The translations under genes were made by a program, and so were the position numbers. The notes under the pieces are model-generated. The model had not been told where the DNA came from and ran no database searches. It saw nothing but the letters and a program-made list of their open reading frames with translations. From NCBI GenBank assembly GCA_017530365.1, contig JAFXMK010000018.1, forward strand, positions 147,622 through 211,621: a stretch of 64,000 nt of DNA. Reading direction: 5' to 3'. The DNA comes from Bacteroidales bacterium. Its GTDB lineage: Bacteria; Bacteroidota; Bacteroidia; Bacteroidales; F082. Of this stretch, positions 7,490-54,058 are shown piece after piece. Positions within the stretch are counted from its first letter, which is position 1. The number at the start of each line of letters is the position of its first letter.

Positions 7490-7513
7490 AAGATTTAAAG
7501 ATTCAAAGATTCA
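7490..7513 (-). repeat. Octad tandem array (AAGATTCA unit)
   Basis: Three 8-bp units AAGATTTA, AAGATTCA, AAGATTCA ending next to the stop (7515) of the minus-strand lipoprotein gene. On that strand the unit reads TGAATCTT and carries TGA. Confidence 0.7.
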
Positions 7514-7514
7514 A

Positions 7515-8855
7515 TCATCTTCTTCCTCCGCCTCCGCTACGGCCGCTGCTGCTACTGCTGTGGCTGCTTCCGCTGCTGCGGCTACCACCGCTATAGCTGC
7601 TTCCGCTGCTTCTTGATGAAGATCCGCTGTAGCTGCTTCCACTGCTCCTTGAGGAAGAACCGCTGTAGCTGCTGGAGCTGCTTCTTGAAGAGGAGCTGCT
7701 GTGGTTGTAGCTGCCGCTGGAACTGCTTCTTGAGGAGTAGCTGCTGCCGCGATTATAGTTGCTTGACGAGCTGCTTCGAGTGGAAGACTGTGGGCGCACG
7801 TATTCAGAGCTGGAGCGTGACTGACGGCTTTCACTGGGTGAAGTGTAGGTCTTGCGATCTGAAGAGCTGCTGGCTGAGCGGGTGGTAGTTGTGGCGCCTT
7901 GGCGACCCGTGGTGGTTGAACTCGGACGTGAGGCGACGCTTGGACGAGAGCTGGCGCTTGCAGTGGGTCTGCTACCTATGGTTGGCCTGACGCTGCCAGT
8001 TCCTTGCCTTGAACTGCTTGAGCTGCTTCCGCTCACCGTGGGTCTAGAGGTGCTGCCGCTGTAGCTGCCTGTTCTTCCTGAGACGCCAGCGCCTGCGCTG
8101 GAACTTCTTGGACCATTGTTTTCAGGAGCGCGATAGCTCATGGAACCTGGGGTGTTGTTGCGGCGCACGCTGGCCACATAGCTGCCGAAGTCGTTGTGAC
8201 CGCCGCCGTAGCCATTGCCGCCATGGCCGAAGTGGTTGTAATGATGGTGATGATGGGGGTGGTGATGATGATAGTACGGATGATACCAGTAGTAGTCATA
8301 CCATCCCCAGTGCCAGCTGTACCAATAGTAGGGGCGATACCAGTAATAATCGTAATAATACCAGGAATACCATGGATCGTAGAATCTGTAATAAGGATAG
8401 TAATAATGGCTGTAATAAGGATAGAATCCCCAGTTCCACGCATCGCCAACATAGACGTAGGTGTTGCCGCCATTGTTGTTTCCGCCGGTATAATAGTCAT
8501 CGTAGTAGTCCAGAGTTGAGCTGGCGCCAGTTCCGAAACGCTTGATACGGGCTGCGAAATCGGCATCGTAGTAGGTCTCGGTGGTGGTGTAAACCACGCC
8601 GTTGGTGTCGGTCACAGTCTCAGTGGTCTGATAAACAGGATCGACATTGGGCTGGTAGTTCTTGCTGTCGGAATAATAGGCCTGATAGTCGTAGGTCGAA
8701 CTGTTGTTGACACCTGGAGTCACCGTGTTGCTGTTCGCCTTGGCTCTGTTGTAAGGCGAATAGTAGGTGTCATCGTAGGCCATTTTTTTGTTTGACCCGC
8801 AGCCTGCAATCACGAAGGCCGCGAAAAGGACAGGAATGATTCTAATTGCTTTCAT
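7515..8855 (-). CDS. Tyr/His- and Ser-rich low-complexity lipoprotein
   Basis: Protein of 446 aa. The N-terminus is a lipoprotein signal with lipobox at Cys18 (FVIAGCGSN). Residues about 125-205 are extraordinarily rich in Tyr, Trp and His (e.g. [39 protein letters not shown]). The C-terminal half is Ser/Arg/Gly-rich and ends in near-perfect repeats of [12 protein letters not shown] and a GGGGRR tail. No enzymatic domain is visible. Start chosen at the signal peptide (8855). It lies between a FadL-like porin and proS; similar low-complexity proteins next to proS occur in other Bacteroidota, sometimes mis-annotated 'vitellogenin' or 'prolyl-tRNA synthetase' (from memory). Likely surface or periplasmic; function unknown. 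Confidence 0.85.
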
Positions 8856-8882
8856 TTTGTTATGTTTTTTATTTTTATTTCC

Positions 8883-8890
8883 TATTTTTG
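8883..8890 (+). promoter_or_regulatory. Promoter -7 box (TATTTTTG) of proS
   Basis: TATTTTTG followed by CAG, 43 nt upstream of the proS ATG. A TTTG lies about 23 nt upstream, a looser spacing than the usual 19. Confidence 0.55.
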
Positions 8891-8933
8891 CAGTCTCAAT
8901 CAAAAGACAATATCATACAAATATTATACCAAG

Positions 8934-10406
8934 ATGGCTAAAGAATTGACAACCCGCGCTGAAAATTATTCGCAATGGTACAACGACCTTGTAGTGAAGG
9001 CTGATTTGGCGGAGCAGTCCGCAGTTAGAGGATGTATGGTGATCAAACCGTATGGTTATGCGATTTGGGAGTTTATGCACGATGCCTTGGACAAGATGTT
9101 CAAGGAGACCGGACATGTGAATGCCTACTTCCCGCTGTTCATCCCCAAGAGTTTCTTCAGTCGTGAGGCCGATCATGTAGAAGGCTTTGCCAAGGAATGT
9201 GCTGTGGTGACGCACCACCGTCTGATGAACGATCCGAACGGCAACGGCGTGGTGGTCGATCCTTCCGCCAAATTGGAAGAGGAACTGATTGTCCGTCCCA
9301 CCTCCGAAACCATCATCTGGGACACCTATCGCAACTGGGTCAAGAGCTATCGTGACCTCCCGATCCTATGCAACCAATGGGCTAACGTGGTCCGTTGGGA
9401 GATGCGTACCCGTCTCTTCCTCCGCACGGCTGAGTTCCTGTGGCAGGAAGGCCACACGGCTCACGCCACCATGGAAGAGGCTGAGATCGAGGCCAAGAAG
9501 ATGCTGGGTGTCTATACCGAGTTTGCTGAGAAATGGTTGGCCATTCCTGTTTATCAAGGGGTTAAGTCGGCCAACGAACGTTTTGCCGGTGCCTTGAATA
9601 CCTATTGCATCGAGGCTATGATGCAAGACGGCAAGGCTTTGCAGGCTGGCACTTCGCACTTCTTGGGTCAAAACTTCGCCAAGGCATTCGACGTGAAGTT
9701 CCTCAACAAGGAAAACAAACTCGAATACGTGTGGGCTACCTCCTGGGGCGTCTCCACACGTCTGATGGGTGCCTTGATCATGTCGCATTCCGACGACGAC
9801 GGTTTGGTGCTGCCTCCTAAGATCGCCCCGATCCAGGTGGTTATTGTACCTATTTATAAGAATGACGAGGAAAAAGCTTTGACATTTGCCCGTTGCGAAG
9901 AAATGAAGCAGCAGCTGGTCAATGCCGGTCTTCGTGTCAAATTCGACGATCGCGACACACAGAAACCTGGCTTCAAGTTCCACGAATGGGAACTCAAAGG
10001 CGTTCCGGTACGTCTCGTGGTCGGTCCTCGTGATGTGACCAACAACACTGTGGAATTGGCCCGTCGTGATACCATGACCAAGGAATCTGCTTCCTACGAG
10101 GGTATCGTTAATAAGGTGCTCGGCCTGATGGACGAAATTCAGGTGAACCTGTTCCAGAAAGCCTTGAAATATCGTGACGACAACACCTACGATGTCAATA
10201 CATGGGATGAGTTCAAAGCTCAGATTGAGAAAGGTGGTTTCGTGCATGCCTTCTGGGATGGCACCACCGAGACGGAGCTGAAGATCAAGGAAGAGACCAA
10301 GGCCACCCTGCGTTTCATCCCGCTTGATGTCAAAGAAGAAGAAGGCGTGGATGTGTATTCAGGCAAACCCGCCAAAATGAGAGTCTATTTCGCGAAAGCT
10401 TATTGA
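8934..10406 (+). CDS. proS: Prolyl-tRNA synthetase
   Basis: Class II aminoacyl-tRNA synthetase (490 aa) charging tRNA-Pro. It is of the short archaeal/eukaryotic-like ProRS type (no editing insertion), the usual form in Bacteroidota. Motif 2 and 3 regions are visible: [41 protein letters not shown], and [20 protein letters not shown]. The anticodon-binding domain follows ([11 protein letters not shown] ...), with the C-terminal zinc-binding-like extension ending MRVYFAKAY. Start chosen at [16 protein letters not shown], behind a promoter at 8883. It is separated by only 3 bp from the convergent DUF2807-like gene. Confidence 0.97.
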
Positions 10407-10409
10407 TGG

Positions 10410-16827: not shown

Positions 16828-17510
16828 GACGAATACATAAACGGATTCACGAAGAAGGCAATAAGGCAATTCTTATCAATGTGCTGATCGTGGCTGCCTT
16901 GGTAGTGGGTATGAACCTGTTGTGGCCTGAACAGAATTGGTGGCATATTTTGGTCTATGTTGCTTTAGCTGCTTTTTTGGCCTTGATCATTCGTTTTTTC
17001 AGAGATCCCGTCAAGCGTCATACTATTCACATGGAGCATGCGGTGCTTTCTCCTGCAGATGGAGAAATAGCCGCCAATGAGATTGTGATGGAAGACGAAT
17101 ACTTTCACGAGAAGCGCCGTCAGATCTCCATCTTTATGTCGATCTACAATGTGCACATCAACTTTTTTCCCTTTGATGGGGAGGTGACTTATTACAAATA
17201 CCATCCCGGGAAGTTTTTGGTGGCTTTCAAGCCAAAGTCATCGACCGACAACGAGCACAATTCCATTGTGCTGAAAGACCGCCATGGACGTGAGGTTCTG
17301 GTCCGTCAGATTGCTGGTTTTGTGGCCCGACGCATCGTATGTGATCTGGAGCCGGGTGATGAAGCCGTTGCCGGAGAGGAGCTGGGGATGATTCGCTTCG
17401 GCTCCCGAGTGGATGTCTTCCTGCCTTTAGACGCTGAAGTAAAGGTGCATATCGGCGATAAAGTCAAGGGCAAGACTTCGGTGTTGGCGAAGCTGAAAGA
17501 GGAAAGTTGA
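16824..17510 (+). CDS. psd: Phosphatidylserine decarboxylase (short form)
   Basis: Protein of 228 aa in the short Psd family that self-cleaves to give a pyruvoyl-dependent decarboxylase, converting phosphatidylserine to phosphatidylethanolamine. Two N-terminal hydrophobic helices (about 16-60) anchor it. The catalytic core shows VLSPADGEI, FMSIYNVHINFFPFDG and the cleavage region MIRFGSRVDVFLP (Gly-Ser bond). It is translationally coupled to cdsA. The stop is followed at once by a heptad array, with no hairpin terminator. Confidence 0.95.
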   Translation: MRRIHKRIHEEGNKAILINVLIVAALVVGMNLLWPEQNWWHILVYVALAAFLALIIRFFRDPVKRHTIHMEHAVLSPADGEIAANEIVMEDEYFHEKRRQISIFMSIYNVHINFFPFDGEVTYYKYHPGKFLVAFKPKSSTDNEHNSIVLKDRHGREVLVRQIAGFVARRIVCDLEPGDEAVAGEELGMIRFGSRVDVFLPLDAEVKVHIGDKVKGKTSVLAKLKEES

Positions 17511-17545
17511 GAGGTTAGAGGTTAAAGGTTATAGGTTAAAGGTTA
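17511..17545 (+). repeat. Heptad tandem array (nAGGTTA unit)
   Basis: Five 7-bp units: GAGGTTA, GAGGTTA, AAGGTTA, TAGGTTA, AAGGTTA, starting one base after the psd TGA. Each unit junction makes TAG, TAA or similar stops on the plus strand, distributed over all frames. Confidence 0.9.
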
Positions 17546-17551
17546 AATAGT

Positions 17552-18832
17552 TCAAAGTAGGGTTGTAATATCTAAAAGATGGCGTACTTCAAAGGTGCGC
17601 TCTCCAGATTCTTCTTGCCCCAAATGATTGAAGAACACCTGATCAATTCCAGCGGCACGGGCGCCGTCGATGTCAACCGCCATCTCGTCACCGATCATCA
17701 GGCTTTCCTCGGCAGTGGCTCTAGCTTTCTTCAAGGCATACAGAAAAATCTCGGGATTGGGCTTCTTCACACCGACTTCCTCTGAAACAGTCAAGGTTTC
17801 GAAATATGGTTCCATGCCCGAGCCGCTCAGTTTGGTATGCTGTACTTCTTGGAAACCATTGGTGATCAGGTGGAGATGATATTTCGGTTTCAGGTATTCC
17901 AAGAGTTCCATCGTGCCTGGTACCAACCGTACGATGCGGGGTGACCAATACACGTAATCCTCGCTTAGATGGTCAGCGAGTTCAACATCATGGATGTCGT
18001 AATGCTCCAAGGGCTTTAGGAAACGAGTTCGGTTGAGATCGTCTTTGGTGATTTTGTTTTCCCTATAGAGCTCCCAAAGCTTTTCGTTCAAAGGATGATA
18101 CACCTCATGGAAGTCATGGGCACTGGGAATGCCGAGGTCTTTGAGATGGTACTTGTCGTAGATACGCTCGAAAGCCACCTCCGCGGCAGCATCGAAATCC
18201 CAAAGTGTCCGGTCGAGGTCGAAGAAGATGTGATGGTATTTTGACACGGGACAAGAGACTTCGGGACACGAGTCGTTGTCAATGGCCCGAGTCCCGATGT
18301 CCCGTGTCCCGTGTCCATTCAACATTTGCCTTTGCCACTCGAATAGTGCAACGGCTGCAGCGTGACTGACATTGAGGGAACGTGTCGGACCGGGGACGGG
18401 TATATAGACCACCATGTCGCATTGCTTGAGCAGTTCCTCACGGATGCCTTGGCTCTCGCTACCGACGATGAAGGCCACGTCTTCAGGGAGCTGGGTGTCG
18501 TAGATGCAGGTGGCATCATCAGTCGTCTCAATGGCAACAATGCTCTTGCCATTTGGAACGATTTTGCGCAAATCGGTCTCTTCAGTAAAATACCAGCGTA
18601 TGTTGTCACGGCTTGAGGCAGCAGCACGTCGCACTTTGCCCAGCCTGTGGTCTGTCTCACAGCCCAAGAAACACATCTCAGTGGCACCGATGTTATCTGC
18701 CAAACGGATCATGGCGCCTAGATTATCGGGTGTCATGAGATGGTCTGCGATGACGATGGGACGGGGAATTCGTTGGTAGATTTCCTCCGTGGGGATACGT
18801 TCAAATAAATCGTTTGATTTGAGATAGCTCAT
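17552..18832 (-). CDS. Fusion of SpoU/TrmH-family RNA methyltransferase with YjjG-type HAD hydrolase
   Basis: Protein of 426 aa joining two normally separate enzymes. Residues 1-170 are a SPOUT methyltransferase with PDNLGAMIRLADNIGA (motif 1), FIVGSESQGI (motif 2) and the knot-forming IPVPGPTRSLNVSHAAAVALFEW (motif 3), so an rRNA/tRNA 2'-O-methyltransferase. Residues 198-426 are a HAD phosphatase of the YjjG noncanonical pyrimidine nucleotidase type (FFDLDRTLWDF, LITNGF, VGVKKPNPEIF, MIGDEMAVDIDGA). The linker (about 173-197) is encoded by a stop-less heptad repeat, like the intergenic array at 23851. The gene is 10 bp after the MbnH-like gene, so probably the third cistron. Each half looks intact. 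Confidence 0.87.
   Translation of the reverse strand: MSYLKSNDLFERIPTEEIYQRIPRPIVIADHLMTPDNLGAMIRLADNIGATEMCFLGCETDHRLGKVRRAAASSRDNIRWYFTEETDLRKIVPNGKSIVAIETTDDATCIYDTQLPEDVAFIVGSESQGIREELLKQCDMVVYIPVPGPTRSLNVSHAAAVALFEWQRQMLNGHGTRDIGTRAIDNDSCPEVSCPVSKYHHIFFDLDRTLWDFDAAAEVAFERIYDKYHLKDLGIPSAHDFHEVYHPLNEKLWELYRENKITKDDLNRTRFLKPLEHYDIHDVELADHLSEDYVYWSPRIVRLVPGTMELLEYLKPKYHLHLITNGFQEVQHTKLSGSGMEPYFETLTVSEEVGVKKPNPEIFLYALKKARATAEESLMIGDEMAVDIDGARAAGIDQVFFNHLGQEESGERTFEVRHLLDITTLL
18243..18316. repeat. Intragenic heptad/inverted repeat encoding the SpoU-YjjG linker
   Basis: GACACGGGAC (18243-18252) is the inverse complement of GTCCCGTGTC (18299-18308). Inside are 7-8-bp units CCCGAGT, CCCGATGT, CCCGTGT, CCCGTGT. 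Units hold no stop triplet in the coding frame. The outer 10-mer recurs in the intergenic array at 23851. Confidence 0.85.
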
Positions 18833-22401: not shown

Positions 22402-22436
22402 CTTTCCGTTTTCCGTTCTCAGTTTTCCGTTTTTAG
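22402..22436 (-). repeat. Heptad tandem array (TTTTCCG unit)
   Basis: Five 7-bp units: CTTTCCG, TTTTCCG, TTCTCAG, TTTTCCG, TTTTTAG. The stop codon of the aldo/keto reductase gene (22433-22435) falls in the last unit. Confidence 0.85.
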
Positions 22437-23850: not shown

Positions 23851-23904
23851 GACACGGGACTCGTGACCGAGGAACGCGCGTCTCGTGGTCTCGTGTCTCG
23901 TGTC
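23851..23904. repeat. Intergenic heptad array (TCTCGTG unit, GACACGGGAC edge)
   Basis: Begins GACACGGGAC, continues with units TCTCGTG, GTCTCGTG, TCTCGTG and ends in TGTC. Same edge sequence as the linker of the SpoU-YjjG fusion at 18243. Confidence 0.8.
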
Positions 23905-25299: not shown

Positions 25300-25310
25300 T
25301 TTAATTGAAT

Positions 25311-25338
25311 TAGGAGAGAGGAGTTAGGAGTTAGGAGT
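25311..25338 (-). repeat. Heptad tandem array (TAGGAGT unit)
   Basis: Four 7-bp units TAGGAGA, GAGGAGT, TAGGAGT, TAGGAGT, immediately past the stop (25341) of the minus-strand beta-helix gene. On that strand the phased unit reads TAACTCC and carries TAA. Confidence 0.88.
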
Positions 25339-26802: not shown

Positions 26803-26806
26803 CTAG

Positions 26807-27204
26807 TGGAAGTGGAGGGAGTCGAACCCTCGTCCAAACAAGGAACCACCAAGGTTTCTACATGCTTATTCCGCTGTTGGTTTTCGTGCCAGGCAAGGGA
26901 ACGGACGCCCTAAACCTGACCTTATCTCCTAAATTTAACCCACGCGTCGGAGCTCCGAGCGAGCGATCCCGAAATTGATTAGCACCCCGTGCTCAGGCCG
27001 GAATCAGGCATCTCCACCTGCGGGATGTTTCGTCCACCCACCTTGTGGGCGGATTAAGCCAGTGATCTACTGTACTTCGATCAGGCAGCGAAAGCGTAGT
27101 TATTTTCGCCAATTACTTTTTTGCAGTTAAGATTTACGAGCTTCGCTGCGAGGCTCGGCATGCTTCCGTGACAATTCATCTTGCTGTCAAAACCGGTCAC
27201 CCCC
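26807..27204 (-). ncRNA. ssrA: Transfer-messenger RNA
   Basis: Rescues stalled ribosomes by trans-translation. On the minus strand the 5' end GGGGGTG pairs with the 3' CACTTCC (two G-T pairs), discriminator A, with a T arm GAGGG-TTCGACT-CCCTC just before it; 398 nt. The tag reading frame (27081-27110) encodes GENNYAFAA and then TGA. Bacteroidales tags I recall end YALAA; here the third-last residue is Phe. CCA is not encoded. Pseudoknot-forming GC segments fill the rest. No protein gene lies in this stretch. Confidence 0.95.
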
Positions 27205-27210: not shown

Positions 27211-27240
27211 GTTGGAAGTTGATCAGTTGATCAGTTACCA
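27211..27240. repeat. Septad/octad array (GTTGATCA unit) in the ssrA 5' leader
   Basis: Units GTTGGAA, GTTGATCA, GTTGATCA, GTTACCA, between the ssrA promoter and the mature tmRNA 5' end. TGATCA gives TGA on both strands. Confidence 0.75.
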
Positions 27241-27328: not shown

Positions 27329-27365
27329 AACTCCCAACTGATCAACTGAACAACTCCCAACTATT
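27329..27365 (-). repeat. Septad/octad array (AACTGATC unit) over the response-regulator stop codon
   Basis: Units AACTCCC, AACTGATC, AACTGAAC, AACTCCC, AACTATT. The TAG stop of the minus-strand regulator gene (27361-27363) lies in the last unit. Confidence 0.8.
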
Positions 27366-28550: not shown

Positions 28551-28558
28551 TATTTTTG
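28551..28558 (+). promoter_or_regulatory. Promoter -7 box (TATTTTTG) of the VCBS T9SS gene
   Basis: TATTTTTG, 18 nt from the ATG at 28577. With the box at 28541 it forms a perfect inverted repeat with a 2-bp centre. Confidence 0.65.
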
Positions 28559-28576
28559 TGCGTCGAAACACCGATC

Positions 28577-30691
28577 ATGAAACATTTTCTTCTGACAATA
28601 TTGCTTTTATTGTTTGTTGTTCTGTTTGCTAGAGGACAGGAAACTTTCAATTTTCAGCTTTCCGCTTTCAACACCCCATGGTCGGGTGGCCTCAACGCTT
28701 GTCAGTTCGGTCGCATGGATCTTGACCACGACGGGAAAAAGGACCTTTTGGTGTTTGATCGGCACGGCAACCGCTTGTGTTGCTTTTTAAACAAGGGTGA
28801 AGCGGGGTTTATTGATTATCAATATACTATAGAGTACGATAATGCTTTTCCCTCCCTGAACGACTGGGTTGTTTTTGCGGATTATGATGGCGACGGGAAA
28901 GAAGATATCTTCACTTATTCCAATGGTTGGGCAGGCATCAAGGTTTATCGTAATGTGACGGTCGATGGGAATGTCGATTTTCAGCTGATGAAGTATCCGT
29001 ACTTGAGTTCATGGCAGGGTGGAGGCGAGGTGAATATCCTTGCTACAAATGCGGACTATCCAGCAATTGTGGATCTTGACGGTGACGGCGATCTTGACAT
29101 CTTGACCTTCGGCGTGATGGGTACTTTTATCGAGAAGCATCTGAATCTGTCCATGGAACGCTATGGTTGCCTTGATTCACTAGTGTTTGAACGCACGGAT
29201 CCATGTTGGGGCAGGGTGGCTGAGAGTGATGAGGACAACGTCATGTATCTTGATACCTGTTTGTTTGGTTATGGTATTATGGTAAAGGTCGGTGATCCGA
29301 AACACCGTGGTGCTACGATGGCTGTCAGAGATGTGACGGGAGACGGTCTGCTTGACCTGTTGCTTGCAGATGTGGATTATCCAGGGCTGACGCTACTGGT
29401 CAATGGCGGTGATTCTGGAAATGCATTGATAGTCAATCAGATGGATTTCCCGCCACAATACCCTGTCAAGCTGCCTTCCATGCCGGTACCCTATTTCACG
29501 GATATCGATAACGACGGCGATGACGATCTCCTAGTCTCGCCCTTCGATCCTGATCCCATGGCTTGTGATGGCATGGAAAGTATCTGGCTTTATCTGAATC
29601 ATGGAACGGATGACGCTCCTGACTTTCAGCTTTATACCAAATCTTTTTTGCAAGATAATATGCTTGATTTCGGCACGGGGGCATTCCCGGTGGTGGTGGA
29701 TTGGGACGGCGATGGCCTTCTGGACATCGTTGTTGGGTCCATCAAAACTACTGAACTCGTGTGGCTCAAAAACACTGGAACGGCAACGCAACCAGCGTTT
29801 CGGATCACCGAGTTCCCCTTTGGTTTCGGTGAACACACCGGTCTAGTTCCCGCATGTTTTGACCTTGACGGCGACGGTCAACAAGAGTTGCTTATTGGGA
29901 CTGCTGAAGGCAAATTGCTGCTATACGATCATGATGGAACCTTGCTGGATGACGATTATCTTCATTACGACAAAGCCTGGTCGGCGCCATGTTTCTTCGA
30001 TGTGGACCGGGATGGTGCGGTTGATTTGGTGGTTGGGAATGAATCGGGACGGCTTTCGTTTTATAAGGGGAGTGTGGAGTTAGGAGTTAGGAGTGAGGAG
30101 TATTGGGGTGGAGTGGATGTGCGTGACTATAGCACTTCGTATTATGGCTACAGTGTCCCAGCTTTATTCCAATGGGGCGATGAGACCTTGTTGGCTGTGG
30201 GTTCCGAGTCGGGGAAGGTCTTCCTTTATGATGGCATCACCACAGACGAGGATGCTTTGTTCCGTGAAGCTCCAGACCGTTGGACTGAGATTTCCGAAAA
30301 CATGCCTGAAACATTTGGGATGCGTTCCTCATTAGCGTTGGCAGATTTGGACAATGACGACCGTTTGGATATCGTAGTGGGCAATTTCTCAGGAGGATTG
30401 CAGCTGTTCAATACCTCGATTCCCATCAACAACCTTGAAATTGCTGAGCAGCAGGAGAAGGGAACGGTCTTGGTCTTCCCCAATCCAGCGGACATCCAAT
30501 GCTATATCATTTCCAAAACGGAATGCATGAAAAAGGTGGCCCTTTTGGATTTGTTTGGAAGGGTGCTGCGTGAACAGTCGGTTGGGGGAAAGGAATGTCT
30601 GTTAGAGGTCGCTGACTTGCGTCCAGGTGTTTATTTGTTGCGCTTGACGTTGGAGAGCGGCGCTGTGAACCGTATTTTTCTCAAGCGGTAA
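28577..30691 (+). CDS. T9SS cargo with FG-GAP/VCBS repeats
   Basis: Protein of 704 aa with signal peptide (to ARGQ, residue 21). Repeated calcium-loop motifs of the FG-GAP/VCBS type run through it (DLDHDGKKDLLVFD, DYDGDGKEDIFTY, DLDGDGDLDILTF, DIDNDGDDDLLVS, DWDGDGLLDIVVG, DLDGDGQQELLIG, DVDRDGAVDLVVG, DLDNDDRLDIVVG), suggesting a seven- or eight-bladed propeller with DxDxDG Ca sites. The C-terminus is a T9SS sorting domain (VFPNPADIQ ... GVYLLRLTLESG). Codons 500-509 (VELGVRSEEY) derive from a heptad repeat. The last 61 bp overlap the convergent retropepsin gene. Probably a surface-binding protein. Confidence 0.87.
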   Translation: MKHFLLTILLLLFVVLFARGQETFNFQLSAFNTPWSGGLNACQFGRMDLDHDGKKDLLVFDRHGNRLCCFLNKGEAGFIDYQYTIEYDNAFPSLNDWVVFADYDGDGKEDIFTYSNGWAGIKVYRNVTVDGNVDFQLMKYPYLSSWQGGGEVNILATNADYPAIVDLDGDGDLDILTFGVMGTFIEKHLNLSMERYGCLDSLVFERTDPCWGRVAESDEDNVMYLDTCLFGYGIMVKVGDPKHRGATMAVRDVTGDGLLDLLLADVDYPGLTLLVNGGDSGNALIVNQMDFPPQYPVKLPSMPVPYFTDIDNDGDDDLLVSPFDPDPMACDGMESIWLYLNHGTDDAPDFQLYTKSFLQDNMLDFGTGAFPVVVDWDGDGLLDIVVGSIKTTELVWLKNTGTATQPAFRITEFPFGFGEHTGLVPACFDLDGDGQQELLIGTAEGKLLLYDHDGTLLDDDYLHYDKAWSAPCFFDVDRDGAVDLVVGNESGRLSFYKGSVELGVRSEEYWGGVDVRDYSTSYYGYSVPALFQWGDETLLAVGSESGKVFLYDGITTDEDALFREAPDRWTEISENMPETFGMRSSLALADLDNDDRLDIVVGNFSGGLQLFNTSIPINNLEIAEQQEKGTVLVFPNPADIQCYIISKTECMKKVALLDLFGRVLREQSVGGKECLLEVADLRPGVYLLRLTLESGAVNRIFLKR
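30074..30101 (+). repeat. Heptad array inside the VCBS coding sequence
   Basis: Units GTGGAGT, TAGGAGT, TAGGAGT, GAGGAGT. The two TAGs are out of frame. The next unit, whose T would have made an in-frame TAG, reads GAG instead. Confidence 0.88.
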
Positions 30692-33249: not shown

Positions 33250-33277
33250 TTCTTACTTCTTACTTCTTACTTCTTAA
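33250..33277 (-). repeat. Heptad tandem array (TTCTTAC unit) over the Tim44-like stop
   Basis: Four units TTCTTAC, TTCTTAC, TTCTTAC, TTCTTAA. On the minus strand the unit is GTAAGAA; one of its TAA triplets is the stop codon (33274-33276). Same unit as the array at 39243. Confidence 0.9.
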
Positions 33278-39196: not shown

Positions 39197-39244
39197 TAAA
39201 AAAAGCCTGCCCCTTCAGGATCATACTCCTTCCAGGACAGGCTT
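39197..39244 (-). terminator. Intrinsic terminator of the MFS gene
   Basis: AAGCCTG (39203-39209) / CAGGCTT (39238-39244) outer stem with an inner AGGA/TCCT stem, and a seven-T run on the minus strand. It lies just past the heptad array. Confidence 0.8.
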
Positions 39245-39270
39245 CTTACTTCTCTCTTCTTACTTCTTAC
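39243..39270 (-). repeat. Heptad tandem array (TTCTTAC unit) over the MFS stop
   Basis: Units TTCTTAC, TTCTCTC, TTCTTAC, TTCTTAC. The MFS stop codon (39267-39269) is the TAA of the last unit read on the minus strand. Confidence 0.88.
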
Positions 39271-40880
39271 TTAATGTTCGGCTCTTCCAGTCCGAGGTGT
39301 TTCTTCTTGTCAACAGCCTTCAGGATGATACCGATGATGAGAGCGGCAACACCGAGGCAGGCCAACATGACCAGAGGCCAAGTGTAGTTGAGCGCTACCG
39401 GGTCATCGACGCCAGGATTGGTGTTCTCCAAGACCTTGCCAATGAGCAAGGGGAACAGCCACAAACCGATGTTCTGGATCCAGAAGATCAAAGCGTAGGC
39501 TGAACCGATGATCTTTTCATCAACGAGCTTCGGGACGCTGGGCCACAAAGCGGCGGGTACCAACGAGAAGGAGGCACCCAACACCAAGATGGTCACGTAT
39601 GCCACGACGACACCACCGACGGCGCTACCCTTGAACATGGGCAGGATGAAAGCGAAGGTGAGGTGGCAGATGATGAGCAGCAGAGAGCCGATCATCAACA
39701 TGGAAGCGGCTTTGCCTTTATGGTCAACATAGCTGCCGAGGATAGGAGTGATAGCCACAGCCAGCAGCGGGAACACAGCGAAGATGGTCTCGGCAGTGCC
39801 ACGCATGTAACCCATGTAGCAGTAAACCACTAAGGCAATAACGGCCAACAGCATCAAACCGACCTTCATGCCTTTCTTCTTCGAGAAGTTGCTGGCGAAG
39901 GAGCAGACAGCCACCACAAGCATGATGATGTATTGGATGATGGTGACAGTGTCGCCAGCCCAGAAGGAACCAGCCTCAGGTGGGGTCAGGGTCAAATTGC
40001 ACTGCAGCATGTTGACGGCGTACTTCTGGAATGGGAAGATAGCTGAATAGTACAGCACGCAGAGCAGGGCGACGAGCCAGAAGCCAAGGCTTGACAGGAT
40101 CTTGCCGATGTCGGATACCTTGAAAGGATCGTCTTTCTCTTCTGCTTCGCCAGTTTGCTTGTCAAGTTTCTTGTCCATGAAGAAATAGACGATGAACATG
40201 ATCAAAGCGATGCAAAGCAGCACCACGCCGAAAGCAACGGAACGGCTCACGTTGACGTGTCCGCCGAGCTTGGCAAAGTAGGGTGAGAAGATCATGCAGG
40301 TGGCCACACCCAGACGGGCGAGTGCCATCTCGGAACCCATGGCCAATGCGGTCTCACGTCCTTTGAACCATTTCACGATACCACGGCTCACGGTGATACC
40401 AGCCATTTCGGTACCGCAGCCGAAGATCATGAAGCCGACAGCAGCCATCTTGGCGGAAGCGGGCATGCCTCTATAGAAAGGGGAGACGCCCAGCTCCTCG
40501 AAGCCAGGTATGTAGTTGAGGTTGTTGTTGAACCAGGTTTCCAGTCCGCTGCCGTAGAACGACTCGCTGACAGCATAGTACTTGATCAAGCCGCCAACCA
40601 GCATTACGACACCGGATAGTACGGCGGTGAAACGCACACCCATCTTGTCGAGGATGATGCCAGCGAAGATGAGGAAGAACACGAAGACGTTCAGGAAAGT
40701 CTCAGAACCCTGCATGGTTCCAAAGGCGAGACTGTCCCAACCGCGCTCGGTTTGCATCAAATCCTTAATGGGTGAGAGAATGTCCATAAAGATGTATGAA
40801 CAAAACATGGCCAAAGCCAATAACAACAAGGCAATCCACCTATAGGTGGCGTTGTCTCTCATGGTGAGTTTTTCTGTCAT
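39267..40880 (-). CDS. Major facilitator superfamily transporter
   Basis: Integral membrane protein of 537 aa with about 12 TM helices in two halves. Motifs include GIILDKMGVRFTAVLSG (MFS motif A-like loop between TM2 and TM3) and the mirrored PILGSYVDHKGKAASMLMIG in the second half, so a true MFS carrier. A long central loop (about 205-225, charged, KLDKQTGEAEEKDD) and a long N-half periplasmic loop (about 110-140) are typical of the Bacteroidota nitrate/oxalate-type branch. Substrate cannot be told. The gene lies alone between octad and heptad arrays; its stop is within the latter. Confidence 0.85.
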   Translation of the reverse strand: MTEKLTMRDNATYRWIALLLLALAMFCSYIFMDILSPIKDLMQTERGWDSLAFGTMQGSETFLNVFVFFLIFAGIILDKMGVRFTAVLSGVVMLVGGLIKYYAVSESFYGSGLETWFNNNLNYIPGFEELGVSPFYRGMPASAKMAAVGFMIFGCGTEMAGITVSRGIVKWFKGRETALAMGSEMALARLGVATCMIFSPYFAKLGGHVNVSRSVAFGVVLLCIALIMFIVYFFMDKKLDKQTGEAEEKDDPFKVSDIGKILSSLGFWLVALLCVLYYSAIFPFQKYAVNMLQCNLTLTPPEAGSFWAGDTVTIIQYIIMLVVAVCSFASNFSKKKGMKVGLMLLAVIALVVYCYMGYMRGTAETIFAVFPLLAVAITPILGSYVDHKGKAASMLMIGSLLLIICHLTFAFILPMFKGSAVGGVVVAYVTILVLGASFSLVPAALWPSVPKLVDEKIIGSAYALIFWIQNIGLWLFPLLIGKVLENTNPGVDDPVALNYTWPLVMLACLGVAALIIGIILKAVDKKKHLGLEEPNIK

Positions 40881-40889
40881 ATTTGATTA

Positions 40890-40927
40890 GTTATTAGTTG
40901 TTCAGTTAATCAGTTGTTCAGTTTATT
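40890..40927 (-). repeat. Septad/octad array (GTTGTTCA unit) over the M16 stop
   Basis: Units GTTATTA, GTTGTTCA, GTTAATCA, GTTGTTCA, GTTTATT. The M16 protease stop (40923-40925) lies in the last unit. On the minus strand, units carry TGA or TAA. Confidence 0.82.
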
Positions 40928-44491: not shown

Positions 44492-45475
44492 ATGATGAAG
44501 CGTCTCGTCCTGTTATTGTTGCTAGCGCCGCTTGCTTTGATGGCGCAGAAGATTACCGTTGAGGAGTATATTGAAACCTATAAGGACATCGCCATGAGGG
44601 AGATGAAGGAGTATAAGATTCCGGCTTCCATTACCTTGGCGCAAGGTATCATTGAGTCGGGAGCTGGCAACAGCGCTTTGGCGAGAGAAGCAAAAAACCA
44701 TTTTGGCATCAAATGCCATAAAGGTTGGGAAGGTAAGACCTATACCATGGACGACGATGCAAAAGACGAGTGTTTCAGAAAATACAAGAAGGTGGAAGAT
44801 TCGTTCAGGGACCATTCCATATTCCTTACCTCTCGTAGCCGATATGCGGATTTGTTCAAGTTGGACATCATGGATTATGAGGGATGGGCCAAGGGGCTTA
44901 AAGCCGCCGGCTATGCCACCAGTCCCACTTACGCCAAGGCCTTGATCGACCGTATTAAATTGAACAAGCTGTATCTCTATGATCAGATTGCCATGGGCAA
45001 GATCTCGGAGAAGGAAGCGAAGAAAGCCAATAAGGTCGATGAAACGACGGCCGAAGATGAGCTCGCCACCCTGGAGCTTGCTTATTCACCAGTGGATCGC
45101 TCCGTGTTCGAGTTGGTTGACATGACGGAGGACAAGCGCTTTATCTATGAGAACAACCATGTGAGGTTCGTCTTCGCCAAGGAAGGGGAGACCCCTGTTG
45201 GAATGGCCGCGGAATTCGGCATCAAGCTGAAGAAGTTCTGCGAATATAATCTGATAAAGCATCCCGATGATGTGACATTCCATAGTGGTGATATCATCTA
45301 TCTGGAATCCTTAGCCAAGAGAAACCGTAAGGCGAAATCGTACGTCGTCGCTGAAGGCGAGTCGGTCCGCGATGTGGCCTTGCGTTTTGCCGTGAAGCCC
45401 GAAAGGATCGTCAAGTACAACAAGCTTCAAGATGACAAGCATCTGAAGAAAGGGCAGAAGATCAAGTTGAGATAA
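44492..45475 (+). CDS. Glucosaminidase (GH73) with LysM domain
   Basis: Exported peptidoglycan hydrolase of 327 aa. Signal peptide (to ALMAQ), GH73 glucosaminidase domain (about 20-165) with the catalytic Glu in SITLAQGIIESGAGNSALA and the family HFGIKCHKGWEGKTY, then SFRDHSIFL and GYATSPTYAKALI. A Lys/Glu-rich linker and a C-terminal LysM-like module (about 283-327, YVVAEGESVRDVALRFAVKPERIVKYNKL) follow. It cleaves the beta-1,4 bond after GlcNAc in glycan strands by family analogy. The stop codon lies in the first unit of a heptad array. Confidence 0.92.
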   Translation: MMKRLVLLLLLAPLALMAQKITVEEYIETYKDIAMREMKEYKIPASITLAQGIIESGAGNSALAREAKNHFGIKCHKGWEGKTYTMDDDAKDECFRKYKKVEDSFRDHSIFLTSRSRYADLFKLDIMDYEGWAKGLKAAGYATSPTYAKALIDRIKLNKLYLYDQIAMGKISEKEAKKANKVDETTAEDELATLELAYSPVDRSVFELVDMTEDKRFIYENNHVRFVFAKEGETPVGMAAEFGIKLKKFCEYNLIKHPDDVTFHSGDIIYLESLAKRNRKAKSYVVAEGESVRDVALRFAVKPERIVKYNKLQDDKHLKKGQKIKLR

Positions 45476-45543
45476 GAGATAAAAGATAAAAGATAAAAGT
45501 TAACCTTTAACCTCTAACCTTTAACCTCTAACCTCTCAACTCT
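45471..45543. repeat. Back-to-back heptad arrays (GATAAAA and AACCTCT units) between GH73 and uvrA
   Basis: 45471-45498: GATAAGA then three GATAAAA. 45502-45543: AACCTTT, AACCTCT, AACCTTT, AACCTCT, AACCTCT, CAACTCT. The GH73 TAA (45473) is in the first array. The uvrA TAG (45528-45530, minus) is in the second, whose minus-strand unit is AGAGGTT. Confidence 0.93.
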
Positions 45544-48370: not shown

Positions 48371-48398
48371 CTCCTCACTCCTCACTCCTAACTCCTCA
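48371..48398 (-). repeat. Heptad tandem array (CTCCTCA unit)
   Basis: Units CTCCTCA, CTCCTCA, CTCCTAA, CTCCTCA, between uvrA start and the MltD-like stop (48400). Minus-strand units TGAGGAG and TTAGGAG contain TGA or TAG. Confidence 0.88.
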
Positions 48399-48399
48399 C

Positions 48400-49344
48400 T
48401 TACTTTGGTAGTTTAATGACATAGCTGTTTCCTTCGGAAATCGTCAATTTGTCGCTTCTCAACCATGGATTGTAATATTTAAGCATTTTGAGATTGGTGC
48501 CTTGGTCGATGGCGAACTGGGCGAGGTTTTCTATGGTCTCGGTGACGGTAATGGTCTTATACTCCAACGGCTGGTACCAGCCTTCATCACTGATATGGAA
48601 TCCGTATTTCTCGGGGTTTTCCATGATAAGTTTGAAAGCGAGGATGCGGTAGATGTAGCGCTCCGTCTCATTGGGAAGCAGCATGTCGTAATAGGAAGTT
48701 ACCTGCTGTTCTTCAATGGTTTTTGAGATTCTTCCTCCTCCACAGTTATAAGCTGCTGCCGCTAGGGTCCAGCTTTTGAACCTGCGGTATAAGTCCTTAA
48801 GGAAGTCGCAAGCAGCTTGTGTCTCTTTTTCCTGGTGGTAGCGCATATCCACCTCTTTGTAAATCTCGAGGTTATACTGCTTGCCGGTGCCTTCGAGGAA
48901 TTGCCAGAAGCCGACAGCTTTTGATGGAGAGACGGCATTGGTCAGGTCGCTCTCGATCATTGCCAGGTATTTGAAATCAGAAGGAAGGTTGTTCTTCTTC
49001 ATGATAGGCTCAATGACAGGAAGCCATCTTGAGGTCCGTTTCATTAGAAGCAGGGTGCTGGCATGTCGATAGGTGTTTACCAACAGTTCGCGTTCAAGGC
49101 TTTCGCGCACATAGAAACGGTCGAGCGGTACAGGTTCTCCACAGAAATCCATGGTCCTGGGAAGCTCGACGTCGTGGATGTATTGGCTCATCTGTTCGAA
49201 ATGCAACACATCGGGGTTGAGGTTCTCGAAGTAAGAGCTGTCCTGCTCTTCAGTGTTTTGAGCAATGCTAAAAGAGATGGCGGCAGTCACACCTATTAAT
49301 ATAATGGCGAAACCGCAGGCAATAAGCAAGTTCCTTTTTCTCAT
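48400..49344 (-). CDS. MltD-like lytic transglycosylase
   Basis: Protein of 314 aa. An N-terminal anchor or signal (MRKRNLLIACGFAIILIGVTAAISF), then an SLT (lysozyme-like) domain (about 95-230) with the catalytic Glu in YLAMIESDLTNAVSPSKAVGFWQF and the AAAAYNCGGGRI motif, as in membrane-bound lytic transglycosylase D. The C-terminal LysM-like segment (about 265-314, TVTETIENLAQFAIDQGTNLKMLKYYNPWL) would bind peptidoglycan. It cleaves glycan strands, giving 1,6-anhydro-muropeptides. Start chosen at the signal ATG (49344), not the upstream in-frame Met in the repeat. Confidence 0.9.
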   Translation of the reverse strand: MRKRNLLIACGFAIILIGVTAAISFSIAQNTEEQDSSYFENLNPDVLHFEQMSQYIHDVELPRTMDFCGEPVPLDRFYVRESLERELLVNTYRHASTLLLMKRTSRWLPVIEPIMKKNNLPSDFKYLAMIESDLTNAVSPSKAVGFWQFLEGTGKQYNLEIYKEVDMRYHQEKETQAACDFLKDLYRRFKSWTLAAAAYNCGGGRISKTIEEQQVTSYYDMLLPNETERYIYRILAFKLIMENPEKYGFHISDEGWYQPLEYKTITVTETIENLAQFAIDQGTNLKMLKYYNPWLRSDKLTISEGNSYVIKLPK

Positions 49345-49353
49345 AATATGGTA

Positions 49354-49396
49354 CTTTTCAACTTTCAACTTTCAACTTTCAGTTTTCAACTTATCA
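49354..49396 (-). repeat. Heptad tandem array (ACTTTCA unit)
   Basis: Units CTTTTCA, ACTTTCA x3, GTTTTCA, then a partial ACTTATCA that contains the rfbC stop (49394-49396). Minus-strand unit TGAAAGT carries TGA. Confidence 0.88.
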
Positions 49397-49942
49397 AAAT
49401 GGTGTGATGAAGTCCTTGAATAATGGTGACACCTTGTCTTTTTCAGACAAGATGGGGTTGTCAATATTCCATTGGATATTCAGGTCGGGGTCGTTCCAGC
49501 GGATGCTGCCTTCGGAAGCTTTGTTGTAAACGTTGGTGCACTTATAGGAAAATACCGAATGGTCTTCGAGACAGACAAAGCCGTGTGCGAATCCTTCGGG
49601 GATCCAGTACATGAACTTGTTGTTCTCGGTAAGTATCACCGATTCCCACTGACCGTAGGTGGGAGAACCTTTTCGGAGGTCAACGGCGACATCCAAGACC
49701 GCGCCTTTTACCACGCGTACCAGTTTGCCTTGCGCGTAGGGAGGTTTCTGGAAATGCAAGCCACGCAACACACCTTTCATCGACTGAGACTCGTTGTCTT
49801 GCACAAAGTTCATGTCGAGGCCATGTTCCATGAAACGCTGCTTGTTATAGCTCTCAAAGAAATAGCCGCGCTCATCCAGAAACACATCCGGCTTAATTAT
49901 TAACAAGTCTTTTATTCTAGTCTCTATAATCTCCATTGTCAT
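49394..49942 (-). CDS. rfbC: dTDP-4-dehydrorhamnose 3,5-epimerase
   Basis: Cupin-fold epimerase (182 aa) of dTDP-L-rhamnose synthesis, converting dTDP-4-keto-6-deoxyglucose to the L-lyxo isomer for O-antigen or capsule. Signatures: FVQDNESQSMKGVLRGLHFQKPPYAQGKLVRVVKG and FMYWIPEGFAHGFVCLEDHSVFSYKCTN, with catalytic His in LHFQ. Full length. The other rhamnose genes (rfbA, B, D) are not adjacent, so the pathway is split. Start could be either of two Mets two codons apart. Confidence 0.95.
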   Translation of the reverse strand: MTMEIIETRIKDLLIIKPDVFLDERGYFFESYNKQRFMEHGLDMNFVQDNESQSMKGVLRGLHFQKPPYAQGKLVRVVKGAVLDVAVDLRKGSPTYGQWESVILTENNKFMYWIPEGFAHGFVCLEDHSVFSYKCTNVYNKASEGSIRWNDPDLNIQWNIDNPILSEKDKVSPLFKDFITPF

Positions 49943-49943
49943 A

Positions 49944-50017
49944 GTTGTTCAGTTGATCAGTTGGTCAGTTGATCAGTTAACTTCCAACTGACCAACTGAT
50001 CAACTACTAACTTATTA
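49944..50017 (-). repeat. Octad array forming a 19-bp perfect inverted repeat
   Basis: GTTGATCAGTTGGTCAGTT (49952-49970) and its inverse complement (49986-50004) flank a 15-nt spacer; both arms are 8-bp units (GTTGATCA / AACTGATC). The lpdA stop (50015-50017) is just at the end. It could fold as a hairpin between lpdA and rfbC. Confidence 0.85.
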
Positions 50018-51406: not shown

Positions 51407-51435
51407 ACCTGTAGTTATAAACTCGTTTTAAATTG

Positions 51436-51443: not shown

Positions 51444-51604
51444 ATAATTTATGAGAGCAAGGCTTTTAAAATGATGATAATTTTGTTTTGGCTATATGGG
51501 TGTCAATTATGCAAAAAACGAATTAATTTAATCCAAATTACGACTTATTTTAAAAAAAATCTCTATCTTTACAAGTCGATTTAACATTAAAAGAATATAG
51601 GCTT

Positions 51605-53299: not shown

Positions 53300-53360
53300 A
53301 ACAAGAACAACAAAGTCGGTACGCTCAATGATGAGGGCAATCTGGACAGTGGGTTTTTAG

Positions 53361-53393
53361 GCGAAATCTACCCCAAAAAAGGTAGATTTCGCC
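53361..53393. terminator. Hairpin between convergent genes (candidate terminator)
   Basis: GCGAAATCTACC / GGTAGATTTCGC perfect 12-bp stem with a CCAAAAAA-type loop, but no good T run on either strand. It lies between the T9SS gene and the small membrane protein. Confidence 0.55.
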
Positions 53394-53403
53394 CGAAATC
53401 GTA

Positions 53404-53574
53404 TTATGATGGTTGGTCGGCCGAAGATGACTTTTCGATACTTTCTTCTTGGGTGGGCTTTTGGGCATTGTTTTTCCTCTCGCTAATGCGCCTGACCACC
53501 AGCGCAATGAGGGCCCATAACACGAAAAAGGCAATGACTGCCAAAACCCAGACGAAAAGCAAGCTCTTGATCAT
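53404..53574 (-). CDS. Small membrane protein (56 aa)
   Basis: Single TM segment near the N-terminus (MIKSLLFVWVLAVIAFFVLWALIALVVRR) and a short charged, Ser/Glu-rich tail. Not recognised. Support as a real gene comes from a good -7 box (TATTTTTG, 53594-53601) 19 nt upstream of the chosen ATG, and from the usual Bacteroidota start context. The frame extends N-terminally, but that part lies upstream of the promoter. Confidence 0.6.
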   Translation of the reverse strand: MIKSLLFVWVLAVIAFFVLWALIALVVRRISERKNNAQKPTQEESIEKSSSADQPS

Positions 53575-53593
53575 AAGATATATAATTAAGGTG

Positions 53594-53601
53594 CAAAAAT
53601 A
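53594..53601 (-). promoter_or_regulatory. Promoter -7 box (TATTTTTG) of the small membrane protein
   Basis: TATTTTTG on the minus strand followed by CACC, 19 nt before the ATG at 53574. Confidence 0.6.
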
Positions 53602-53628
53602 GTAAAAAACCATCTTTTTTGAACAATC

Positions 53629-53661
53629 TTCTTGGATTCTTCAGAAAATTCCTTATATTTG
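53629..53661 (+). promoter_or_regulatory. Promoter of the 110-aa gene (CTTG-19-TATATTTG)
   Basis: -7 box TATATTTG at 53654-53661 with a CTTG 19 nt upstream, the consensus Bacteroidota spacing. ATG 27 nt downstream. Confidence 0.68.
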
Positions 53662-53688
53662 TACCACTCAAAACAAAATAATACTGCT

Positions 53689-54021
53689 ATGAACACCATC
53701 GACAACAATCCAGTTCACGTTTTATATGATAACAACAAACTCCGCGATGTGATTCTCATGGTGATGGAAGGCCGTGAAAACACCCTCGGCATCACTTTTG
53801 TCAACCTTTGCTATCAGATCCTCCAGTTGGCAGAACAGGAAAAGATGGTCAAGGACTCAGGTGAGGTGATTCACACCAGCAGTGAGATTGCCCCTGAAGA
53901 CCAGGTCCGCGTGAGCCGTGTGCTTTGGGAACTGATCTGGGATCATAAGATTTACCTTCTTTTTGGCAGGAGCCCGCTTCTTGGTTTGAGCAACGGCGAG
54001 GATCGCTTTGTGAAGTATTAA
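53689..54021 (+). CDS. Conserved-looking small cytosolic protein (110 aa)
   Basis: Helix-rich soluble protein with no signal or TM. It looks like a small all-alpha regulator or adaptor (NKLRDVILMVMEGRENTLGITFVNLCYQILQLAEQEKM ... EDQVRVSRVLWELIWDHKIYLLFG), ending in FVKY. Not recognised. It has its own promoter (53629-53661). Start at MNTIDNN, not the upstream in-frame Met, which precedes the promoter. A heptad array follows. Confidence 0.7.
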   Translation: MNTIDNNPVHVLYDNNKLRDVILMVMEGRENTLGITFVNLCYQILQLAEQEKMVKDSGEVIHTSSEIAPEDQVRVSRVLWELIWDHKIYLLFGRSPLLGLSNGEDRFVKY

Positions 54022-54030
54022 GGGTTATAA

Positions 54031-54058
54031 GACAGAAGACAGAAGGCAGAAGGAAGAA
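54031..54058 (+). repeat. Heptad tandem array (GACAGAA unit)
   Basis: Units GACAGAA, GACAGAA, GGCAGAA, GGAAGAA, 10 nt past the stop of the 110-aa gene. Unlike most arrays, the unit holds no stop triplet. Confidence 0.85.

Follow-up and report, generated by a model that had tools for sequence, protein, structure and literature searches.

Interspersed seven-base-pair arrays at gene seams and inside conserved enzymes of a Bacteroidales lineage

Among the questions raised by short tandem repeats in bacterial genomes, a particularly curious one is why a repeat that steps in seven base pairs (bp), and is therefore out of step with the codon, should lie again and again at the ends of genes. The question arises from a stretch of 64,000 nucleotides (nt) of a Bacteroidales bacterium (GenBank assembly GCA_017530365.1, contig JAFXMK010000018.1, positions 147,622 to 211,621; C9:147622-211621 in our numbering), hereafter the window, which belongs to a draft genome of 2.67 Mb in 50 contigs. 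A previous reading of the window, based on its letters alone (hereafter the sequence-only reading), had listed 17 arrays of period 7 or 8 and had proposed that they act as frame-independent translation blocks at gene ends, or arise by a duplication process selected for that. Here we report that such arrays share their units across loci, that they lie in frame inside conserved enzymes, that the inserts at fixed sites differ between species, and that their bias towards stop codons is lost beyond the stop codon of a gene. We consider it rather probable that they are interspersed repeats, which come from a process stepping in 7 bp and are exchanged at permissive sites, and whose link with stop codons is a matter of survivorship.

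The records matching one protein of the window are uncultured, and largely metagenome-assembled genomes of rumen and gut Bacteroidales (RUG14627, RGIG7248 and “bacterium F082”, which is Candidatus Alcium sp. F082 at NCBI). In this lineage, the arrays are found between genes but also inside isoleucyl-tRNA synthetase (IleRS), succinate dehydrogenase, MurE and Nqr subunits, as well as inside the UvrA of some relatives. Their interchangeable inserts at fixed sites offer a natural record of gene seams and of protein sites that tolerate insertions, and also of how adjoining genes become one frame.

Period, abundance and shared units

The arrays of the window were first located with Tandem Repeats Finder, which has a repeat at, or within about 45 bases of, each of the 17 listed places. 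By hand count (score of at least 30, at least 3 copies), the window holds 15 rows of period 7, three of period 8 (two of them overlapping) and one each of periods 9 and 6. The claimed dominance of periods 7 and 8 was therefore borne out, while the strict absence of periods 6 and 9 was not, as shown by weak rows at 8866 (TTTTTA, period 6) and at 7545 (period 9, in a GCT-rich coding stretch). A scan for periodic stretches at a fixed threshold was then applied to 464 kb of the same genome (the window plus 400 kb more), with genes called by a home-made caller trained on the same sequence, and gave 51 arrays of period 7, nine of period 8, three of period 9, and two each of periods 6 and 3. Dinucleotide shuffles of this sample (three rounds, gaps and genes shuffled separately) gave no array at the same threshold, an over-representation of tandem heptamers against chance of 51 to 0.

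Eleven genomes of the same genus (337 kb) proved similar, with 44 arrays of period 7 and 11 of period 8, and periods 7 and 8 stand far above 6 and 9 in the genome of the window. Period-7 arrays number 12 in ten loci of other Bacteroidales (100 kb), three in Flavobacteriales-like loci (222 kb) and two, with one more of period 8, in 20 other families of Bacteroidales (392 kb). Since array counts differ among the sampled lineages, abundance is a feature of some of them. In all these counts one array at a locus end was dropped, orthologous arrays of related species were counted although not independent, and seven loci judged to be the same genomes as the genus stretches were left out of the pooled sets.

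The arrays are not confined to the space between genes, as 43 of the 136 classified ones are intragenic (12 of the 43 from 22 loci centred on a fused gene seam, described below, and thus ascertained by it). Period 7 prevails even there: wholly inside genes of the genome of the window there are 22 arrays of period 7 and two each of periods 3, 6, 9 and 12, and for four groups of loci pooled the corresponding figures are 39 and 6, 3, 4 and 5. Five of these 39 arrays end within 60 nt of the stop codon and one starts within 60 nt of the start codon. Between genes, the density per kb is 1.40 in co-directional, 0.91 in convergent and 0.33 in divergent gaps.

A property that the sequence-only reading had not noted is the sharing of units across loci. 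The 60 arrays of period 7 or 8 in the 464 kb have 32 distinct consensus units, and 52 pairs of arrays have identical units, against 5.8 ± 2.4 when letters are permuted within units. Common units, read on the purine-rich strand, are AGAAGNN, AGGAGTN, AGAGGTN and AGATAAR, together with ACGGAAA, GGAATNN, AGTTNNC and the 8-mer AGTTGNTC, and the two-variant mixtures GGAGTTA/GGAGTGA and AGATAAA/AGATAAG recur at several loci. Moreover, 84 pairs of these arrays have a 15-mer in common (null 61.5 ± 6.7), and a 151-base query including the array at 17510..17547 has 36 matches in the genome. Variation within arrays falls mainly in some columns of the unit (sum of squares 551, null 415 ± 19), a figure that duplicated variant units inflate and confound.

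Arrays and hairpins span roughly 20-125 bp. An inverted partner lies within 150 bp of 19 of 120 arrays, against none of 120 when the flanks are shuffled. Hairpins occur alongside single arrays, and no constant sequence was seen beyond the repeat unit. The stop-free heptapeptides encoded in the sense direction have a mean hydropathy of -0.94 (29 of 38 units), and permuted units give the same value (-0.97 ± 0.07), which therefore follows from composition; hydropathy was rejected as a selected trait of these peptides. The 19 stop-free antisense readings, which are not paired with the sense ones, average +0.53.

Exchange at gene seams and inside conserved enzymes

Thirteen seams between genes of the window carry arrays, and 12 of them had comparable genomes, which gave 106 cells once those with a compared stretch below 30 or above 800 nt had been dropped. 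The same unit (at most one difference) was found in 12 cells, a different unit in 28 (a class that includes a few A/T-rich repeats such as AATTTTT and CTTTTTTG) and no array in 66. Leaving aside seam 28|29 (40886-40923), where “same” is impossible because our scan calls no array there, the 97 remaining cells divide into 12, 22 and 63. Where a co-directional seam lacks an array, the two genes may overlap by 4 nt or lie hundreds of bases apart, and 12 of 34 such seams measure at most 16 nt.

Single sites give the same picture of turnover. The hairpin at 23851..23904 is kept in G034, a comparison genome with a nucleotide identity of 73-97% (mostly 88-97%) over long aligned blocks, and elsewhere its place is taken by CTTCTGA/CTTCTTA-type arrays or by a gap of 1-4 nt. 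At 48371..48400 an AGAAGNN-type array is found in G034, and the two genes overlap by 4 nt in three other genomes (G004, G036 and G038). Among 11 other genomes, site 49943..50005 has other units in seven, the same unit in one and none in three. Of 30 genomes compared at site 17510..17547, 27 lack an array. Classed by hand, most arrays of the window have the same unit in G034, several with length changes of whole units, while another unit occurs at three sites (18243, 27211/27329 and 48371) and the array at 33250 is nearly lost; G034 also carries further arrays that the genome of the window lacks.

The exchange extends to a seam that is translated. The open reading frame (ORF) 17552-18832 encodes a SpoU methylase (aa 26-164) and a HAD hydrolase (aa 201-395) in one protein, and a 74-bp hairpin built of GTCCCGT heptamers separates their coding regions. 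The sequence-only reading was right to call this array intragenic, with the qualification that it sits at a gene seam that is read through. We compared this seam in 51 genomes, our own and 50 further loci (L059-L108; the compared proteins of L077 and L086 are identical and both were counted), assigning insert types by motif rules. The seam is often a short overlap of ATGA type. An insert is present in 29 genomes, belonging to one of five heptamer types, to a type with 9-bp steps or to another palindrome, and absent in 22; a tree of the seam requires at least 22 changes of insert type and at least 12 of presence. Both proteins form one open frame in 26 genomes, 20 of which have a recognised insert (in two of them the other palindrome); in three the genes share a frame that a stop interrupts where they are joined, and in the remaining 22 they lie in different frames. 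The insert of G034 is wholly different from ours. In L087, L098 and L107 this seam holds a longer insert, whose arms repeat the 9-bp CAAAACNNN and enclose a GC-rich hairpin.

The intragenic arrays of our genome number 21, in 20 ORFs. Ten array-bearing ORFs were compared with NCBIfam, and seven scored above the cut-offs, as MurE, IleS, SdhB, SdhA, NqrF, NqrB and NqrA; two more scored below them, one resembling biotin carboxylases and the other prenyl diphosphate synthases, and one had no hit. Two further array-bearing ORFs belong to the window, namely SpoU-HAD and an FG-GAP-repeat ORF, the latter holding the array at 30074 that had been listed as lying at a gene end and in fact lies in frame, inside the gene.

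In three enzymes we compared 30 ORFs each, numbering positions from the longest possible start codon. In IleRS, 12 ORFs carry 22 arrays between them, every one of period 7, and these fall in two regions, around aa 214-265 and 602-657. Seven SdhA ORFs have period-7 arrays, at one common site except for one N-terminal array, and three UvrA ORFs have them, two at one site and one C-terminal; the UvrA of G034 contains an in-frame hairpin. In other species the sites in IleRS, SdhA and UvrA are occupied by different units, hairpins, other palindromes (CCCTTCGACAGGCTCAGGGACC, GTAGAGACG..CGTCTCTAC) or short repeat-free sequence. Aligned with the solved structures of IleRS (8c8w) and SdhA (9lay), our inserts coincide with gaps of 9 and 7 residues.

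Three side observations concern these sites. Palindromes like CCCTTCGACAGGCTCAGGGACC stand in frame at the heptamer-array site of SdhA in L195, L197, L199, L201, L208, L213, L214 and L220, and others like CGGCTGCCACA..TGTGACAGC at that of IleRS in L173, L175, L179, L181, L183, L186 and L190. At the UvrA site, L033 and L034 have inverted pairs of heptamers that are very short (AGTGAGGACTCCTCA in L033, where the net length has not grown) and that could be an early or a remnant stage of a hairpin array.

Generation of the arrays and their link with stop codons

In the explanation that we favour, short interspersed arrays would be made and remade by a process that advances 7 bp, or less often 8 bp, at a time. 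As singles or hairpins, these would gain or lose whole units, and one would take the place of another at fixed sites between species; they would persist wherever the protein is left unbroken, that is, in short intergenic gaps, at gene ends, at domain seams and, presumably, in surface loops. The length changes by whole units point to slippage, and the shared vocabulary of units together with the whole replacements points to copying between loci as well, so the arrays would spread by inter-locus copying on top of local slippage. The nature of an enzyme that steps in sevens becomes in this way an addressable question.

Several observations weigh against this explanation. Runs of identical units that slippage has produced may account for part of the excess of shared 15-mers, and the number of shuffles (of 1000) that reach the observed sharing goes from 1 for 15-mers to 14, 29 and 25 for 18-, 20- and 22-mers, and to 72 for 25-mers. 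The changes at the UvrA and SpoU|HAD sites resemble replacement and not clean insertion: hairpin arms are present, and neither fixed termini nor a clear target-site duplication was seen at these boundaries, which represent few events. No enzyme is linked to the arrays. The tree of the SpoU|HAD seam is a quick and weakly supported one, 7 of its 48 inner branches being starred. Relatives also differ in array density: 22 loci where SpoU and HAD are fused, a set that the seam itself enriches, have 15 period-7 arrays in 244 kb, and 21 loci where the two are unfused have four in 233 kb. Finally, units with stops on both strands exceed the letter-permutation null among 130 arrays of period 7 or 8 (34 against 18.2 ± 3.2), most strongly in gap arrays (22 of 51, null 9.8 ± 2.4), an excess that we would ascribe to survivorship too, these arrays presumably being hemmed in by ORFs on either side.

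The alternative that survives best is local replication slippage alone, whereby each array would grow from its own seed through a 7-bp bias of the polymerase, without any copying between loci. Arrays of our genome and G034 do differ in length by whole units, and the passages of PMC4679880 that relate the work of Mrazek (2007) describe heptamers as the most abundant category of long simple repeats in most genomes and relate that polymerase slippage, with a polymerase footprint, was proposed as their source. However, units recur far above the letter-permutation null (52 against 5.8), identical two-variant mixtures appear at several loci, and the SpoU|HAD inserts of our genome and G034 differ entirely; we therefore regard slippage alone as a possible but unlikely origin. 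Slightly less likely still would be a dedicated copying activity that writes heptamer arrays into seams and loops as interchangeable cassettes, in effect a frame-independent system for making linkers. If it existed, the lineage would repeatedly gain clean gene ends from one strand of its arrays, and hydrophilic linkers, loops and fusions from the other.

An element of the type of miniature inverted-repeat transposable elements (MITEs) or repetitive extragenic palindromic (REP) sequences, moved by a transposase and with arms that happen to be heptamer repeats, would agree with the hairpin forms (19 of 120 arrays), with the other palindromes at the same protein sites and with the likeness of the in-frame inserts to the Rickettsia palindromic elements, as these are presented in PMC10969869. 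It appears improbable in view of the 101 of 120 arrays that have no inverted partner within 150 bp, of the boundaries, at which no fixed termini or duplication were seen, and of the two Y1 transposase genes found in the genome, which adjoin other palindromes and have no heptamer array in their 3.3-kb loci. REP and REPIN elements moved by REP-associated tyrosine transposases (RAYTs) flank the Y1 transposase gene, and the heptamer arrays do not: an origin of this kind was rejected because, at a score of 10, no array with a period of at least 5 accompanies either Y1_Tnp gene (L159 and L160). A reverse transcriptase as the writer was discarded likewise, the loci of the two RVT_1 genes having no such array. 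The palindromes that flank the Y1_Tnp genes (L159:1200-2200 and L160:1200-2200; CATCCTCATCCCCGCAGGGGATGATAGCTC..., GCCCTGAAAGGGC / GGGCGTTGCCC) look like REP/REPIN elements of their own.

The link with stop codons is real and has a sharp limit. Among the 73 co-directional arrays, the upstream stop is inside or adjacent to 41, and 32 lie beyond it, in agreement with the observation that most arrays begin at or include a stop codon. Those holding the stop have 3.07 stops per array in the sense and 0.98 in the antisense direction, against 2.44 and 1.91 for those beyond it. Counted by period-7 unit, arrays in which an ORF ends have a stop in 30 of 35 units on the sense strand and in six of 35 on the antisense strand, as against 11 and 9 of 21 for arrays beyond the stop; a fraction of 0.395 of ordinary 7-mers just past stops (circularised) carry a stop. 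Stops occur in all three sense frames in 20 of the 41 stop-holding arrays (antisense, three of 41) and, as is necessarily expected, in none of the 43 intragenic ones. The purine fraction in sense behaves in the same way, being 0.73 in arrays that hold the upstream stop and 0.51, hence without bias, beyond it. In the window itself, about 13 arrays had been credited with a sense stop in their unit. By hand count it is 11 of 15 gene-end arrays, two of the 17 being intragenic, and the stop-less exceptions at 22402, 23851 and 54031 have to be joined by that at 27329.

The sequence-only reading had taken these stops for a function, and part of the evidence is what selection for frame-independent translation blocks would predict: the strong sense bias of stop-holding arrays, their stops in three frames, and the excess of both-strand stops over all arrays. 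The bias is absent beyond the stop, and so belongs to the arrays in which an ORF ends, with no sense-stop enrichment independent of that ending. The period is still 7 inside genes, where stops are barred, and was therefore not chosen to scatter them. Convergent gaps, which have two 3′ ends, are less dense in arrays than co-directional ones, so that the 3′ end as such is not the attractor. Moreover, the SpoU and HAD genes are openly fused in 26 of 51 genomes, and some gene-end arrays are stop-free (that at 54029 and the ACGGAAA types). Selection as a translation block thus seems very unlikely, and the stop codons of the arrays are best explained as a by-product of where repeats are tolerated.

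Survivorship of repeats at permissive sites would work strand by strand. A step of seven is not divisible by three and so carries an array through each of the frames in turn, as the sequence-only reading had pointed out. Each strand therefore has a single reading, which is either a series of stops, whatever the frame, or one heptapeptide over and over. A strand with stops would survive in the sense direction where an ORF can end, and so would supply the stop of the gene; a stop-free strand would survive as an in-frame linker or loop, and could fuse genes. Such survivorship accounts for the coupling with gene ends, for the missing bias beyond stops and for the open fusions, and we infer that it produces the stop bias by itself. 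The point is a general one: where the step of a repeat is not a multiple of three, orientation alone decides whether the repeat ends or extends a protein.

As unlikely as the translation block is a regulatory role, in which the arrays would either be motifs that an RNA-binding protein recognises in front of start codons or form unstructured leaders rich in purines. In its favour one may cite the 40 of 73 co-directional arrays that end within 14 nt of the downstream start, the concentration of variants in certain unit columns and the purine richness of stop-holding arrays, against the lack of purine bias beyond the stop, the arrays in convergent gaps and inside essential enzymes, and the differing units at one seam, which would not preserve a binding code.

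Relation to known repeats, and the arrays of the window

We place the arrays among the known interspersed and heptameric repeats, as a variant with exchanged in-frame arrays inside conserved enzymes; among the listed titles and abstract openings of the open-access papers searched we found no description of exchanged 7-bp arrays at such places. Mycobacterial interspersed repetitive units are repeats found at overlapping stop/start sites, with units of tens of bases. Our arrays likewise occupy operon seams of the ATGA type, but their unit of 7 bp is far shorter.

Near counterparts are the TAACTGA direct repeats, which the relevant passages of MacGregor (2015, PMC4679880) describe in Beggiatoaceae, cyanobacteria and five Bacteroidetes, where forward copies give stops in all three frames and an RNA-binding protein is proposed to bind them 5′ of start codons. 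That system, as presented there, has one fixed unit, whereas ours has 32 among 60 arrays; unlike it, the present arrays differ between species at the same sites, lie in frame in essential enzymes and partly form hairpins. Repeats of the TAACTGA type are placed directly 5′ of starts, and here 40 of 73 co-directional arrays come within 14 nt of one, yet 43 of 136 classified arrays are intragenic. According to the same source's account of Mrazek (2007), repeats of coding regions most likely have unit lengths divisible by three, in contrast to the coding arrays described here, mostly of period 7. The tandem repeats of Borgs, in the portion of PMC9879509 that deals with them, also have unit lengths divisible by three within ORFs; they resemble ours in being rapidly evolving and in occupying gaps and ORFs of one lineage, and differ in the unit of 7. 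The nearest case of in-frame insertion is that of the Rickettsia palindromic elements, characterised in the corresponding part of PMC10969869 as inserts of about 150 bp, of several families, that lie in frame in protein genes and encode a conserved peptide. The arrays share with them the short in-frame insertion into conserved protein genes (here MurE, IleS, SdhA/B and NqrA/B/F), but are arrays or hairpins with a 7-bp step and many units, without fixed ends that we could see, and with an inverted partner in only 19 of 120.

Table 1. Heptamer and octamer arrays of the window (positions count from its first letter).
Array	Position	Strand	Context
8-bp array, sense TTGAATCTTTGAATC...	7486..7514	-	Abuts the stop of a minus-strand gene ending at 7515; G034 copy identical
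7-bp array AGAGGTT/AAAGGTT	17510..17547	+	Between convergent genes: PS decarboxylase (end 17510) and SpoU-HAD ORF (end 17552)
Hairpin of GTCCCGT/GACACGG heptamers	18243..18316	-	In frame between SpoU and HAD domains; AGAAGTC-type array instead in G034
7-bp array TTTCCGT (sense ACGGAAA, stop-free)	22403..22433	-	End of minus-strand gene 22433-23833
Hairpin of GTCTCGT/GACACGG heptamers	23851..23904	-	Between two minus-strand genes
7-bp array TTAGGAG	25310..25338	-	Between minus-strand genes; sense strand pyrimidine-rich, contrary to the trend
8-bp array AGTTGATC	27211..27236	-	Just upstream of the 5′ end of the tmRNA gene
Inverted partner array CAACTGAT	27329..27355	-	Near the stop of a minus-strand gene ending at 27361
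7-bp array GGAGTTA/GGAGTGA	30069..30101	+	In frame in FG-GAP-repeat ORF 28556-30691 (711 aa), aa 505-516; kept in close relative G034
7-bp array TTCTTAC (sense GTAAGAA)	33250..33276	-	Contains the stop of a gene ending at 33274; contracted, nearly lost in G034
7-bp array CTTCTTA (sense TAAGAAG)	39242..39272	-	Contains the stop of MFS gene 39267-40880; G034 copy two units longer
Mixed 7/8-bp array	40886..40923	-	End of minus-strand gene 40923-43730; below the threshold of our scan
Two abutting arrays AGATAAA + TAACCTC	45469..45543	.	Between the ends of glucosaminidase (+) and uvrA (-)
7-bp array, sense TGAGGAG	48371..48400	-	Between SLT gene and uvrA
7-bp array TTTCAAC (sense GTTGAAA)	49356..49397	-	TTTCCGT in G023; one unit shorter in G034
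8-bp array AGTTGATC + inverted partner (hairpin)	49943..50005	-	
7-bp array AAGACAG (stop-free)	54029..54059	+	After a plus-strand gene ending at 54021

The arrays of the window (Table 1) had been listed as 17 single ones. Repeats exist at all these places, and some of them are in fact pairs of inverted arms: 27211/27329 and 49944, and by eye also 18243 and 23851. The array at 27211 is 124 nt beyond the stop of the nearest gene, next to the transfer-messenger RNA (tmRNA) gene at 26806-27204 on the minus strand, and in G034 both arms of the 27211/27329 pair are built of other units (AGAAGNN and AGAGGTN). The region upstream of the tmRNA gene is thus flanked by two inverted 8-bp arrays, and other arrays flank its counterpart in G034 and G020.

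Two coding repeats of the window deserve separate mention. A repeat at 28644 (CTTTCAG) was absent from the list of 17; stretch 28644-28672 and the joined stretch 23617-23648 of G034 are 7-bp-periodic coding stretches of equal length with CTTTCAA-like and CTATCAA units, respectively, as if the units had been homogenised in place. Lastly, positions 7536-7746, in the C-terminal part of the minus-strand ORF 7515-8903, hold codon-phased repeats with periods of 9, 15, 18, 36 and 45, unlike the 7-bp arrays.

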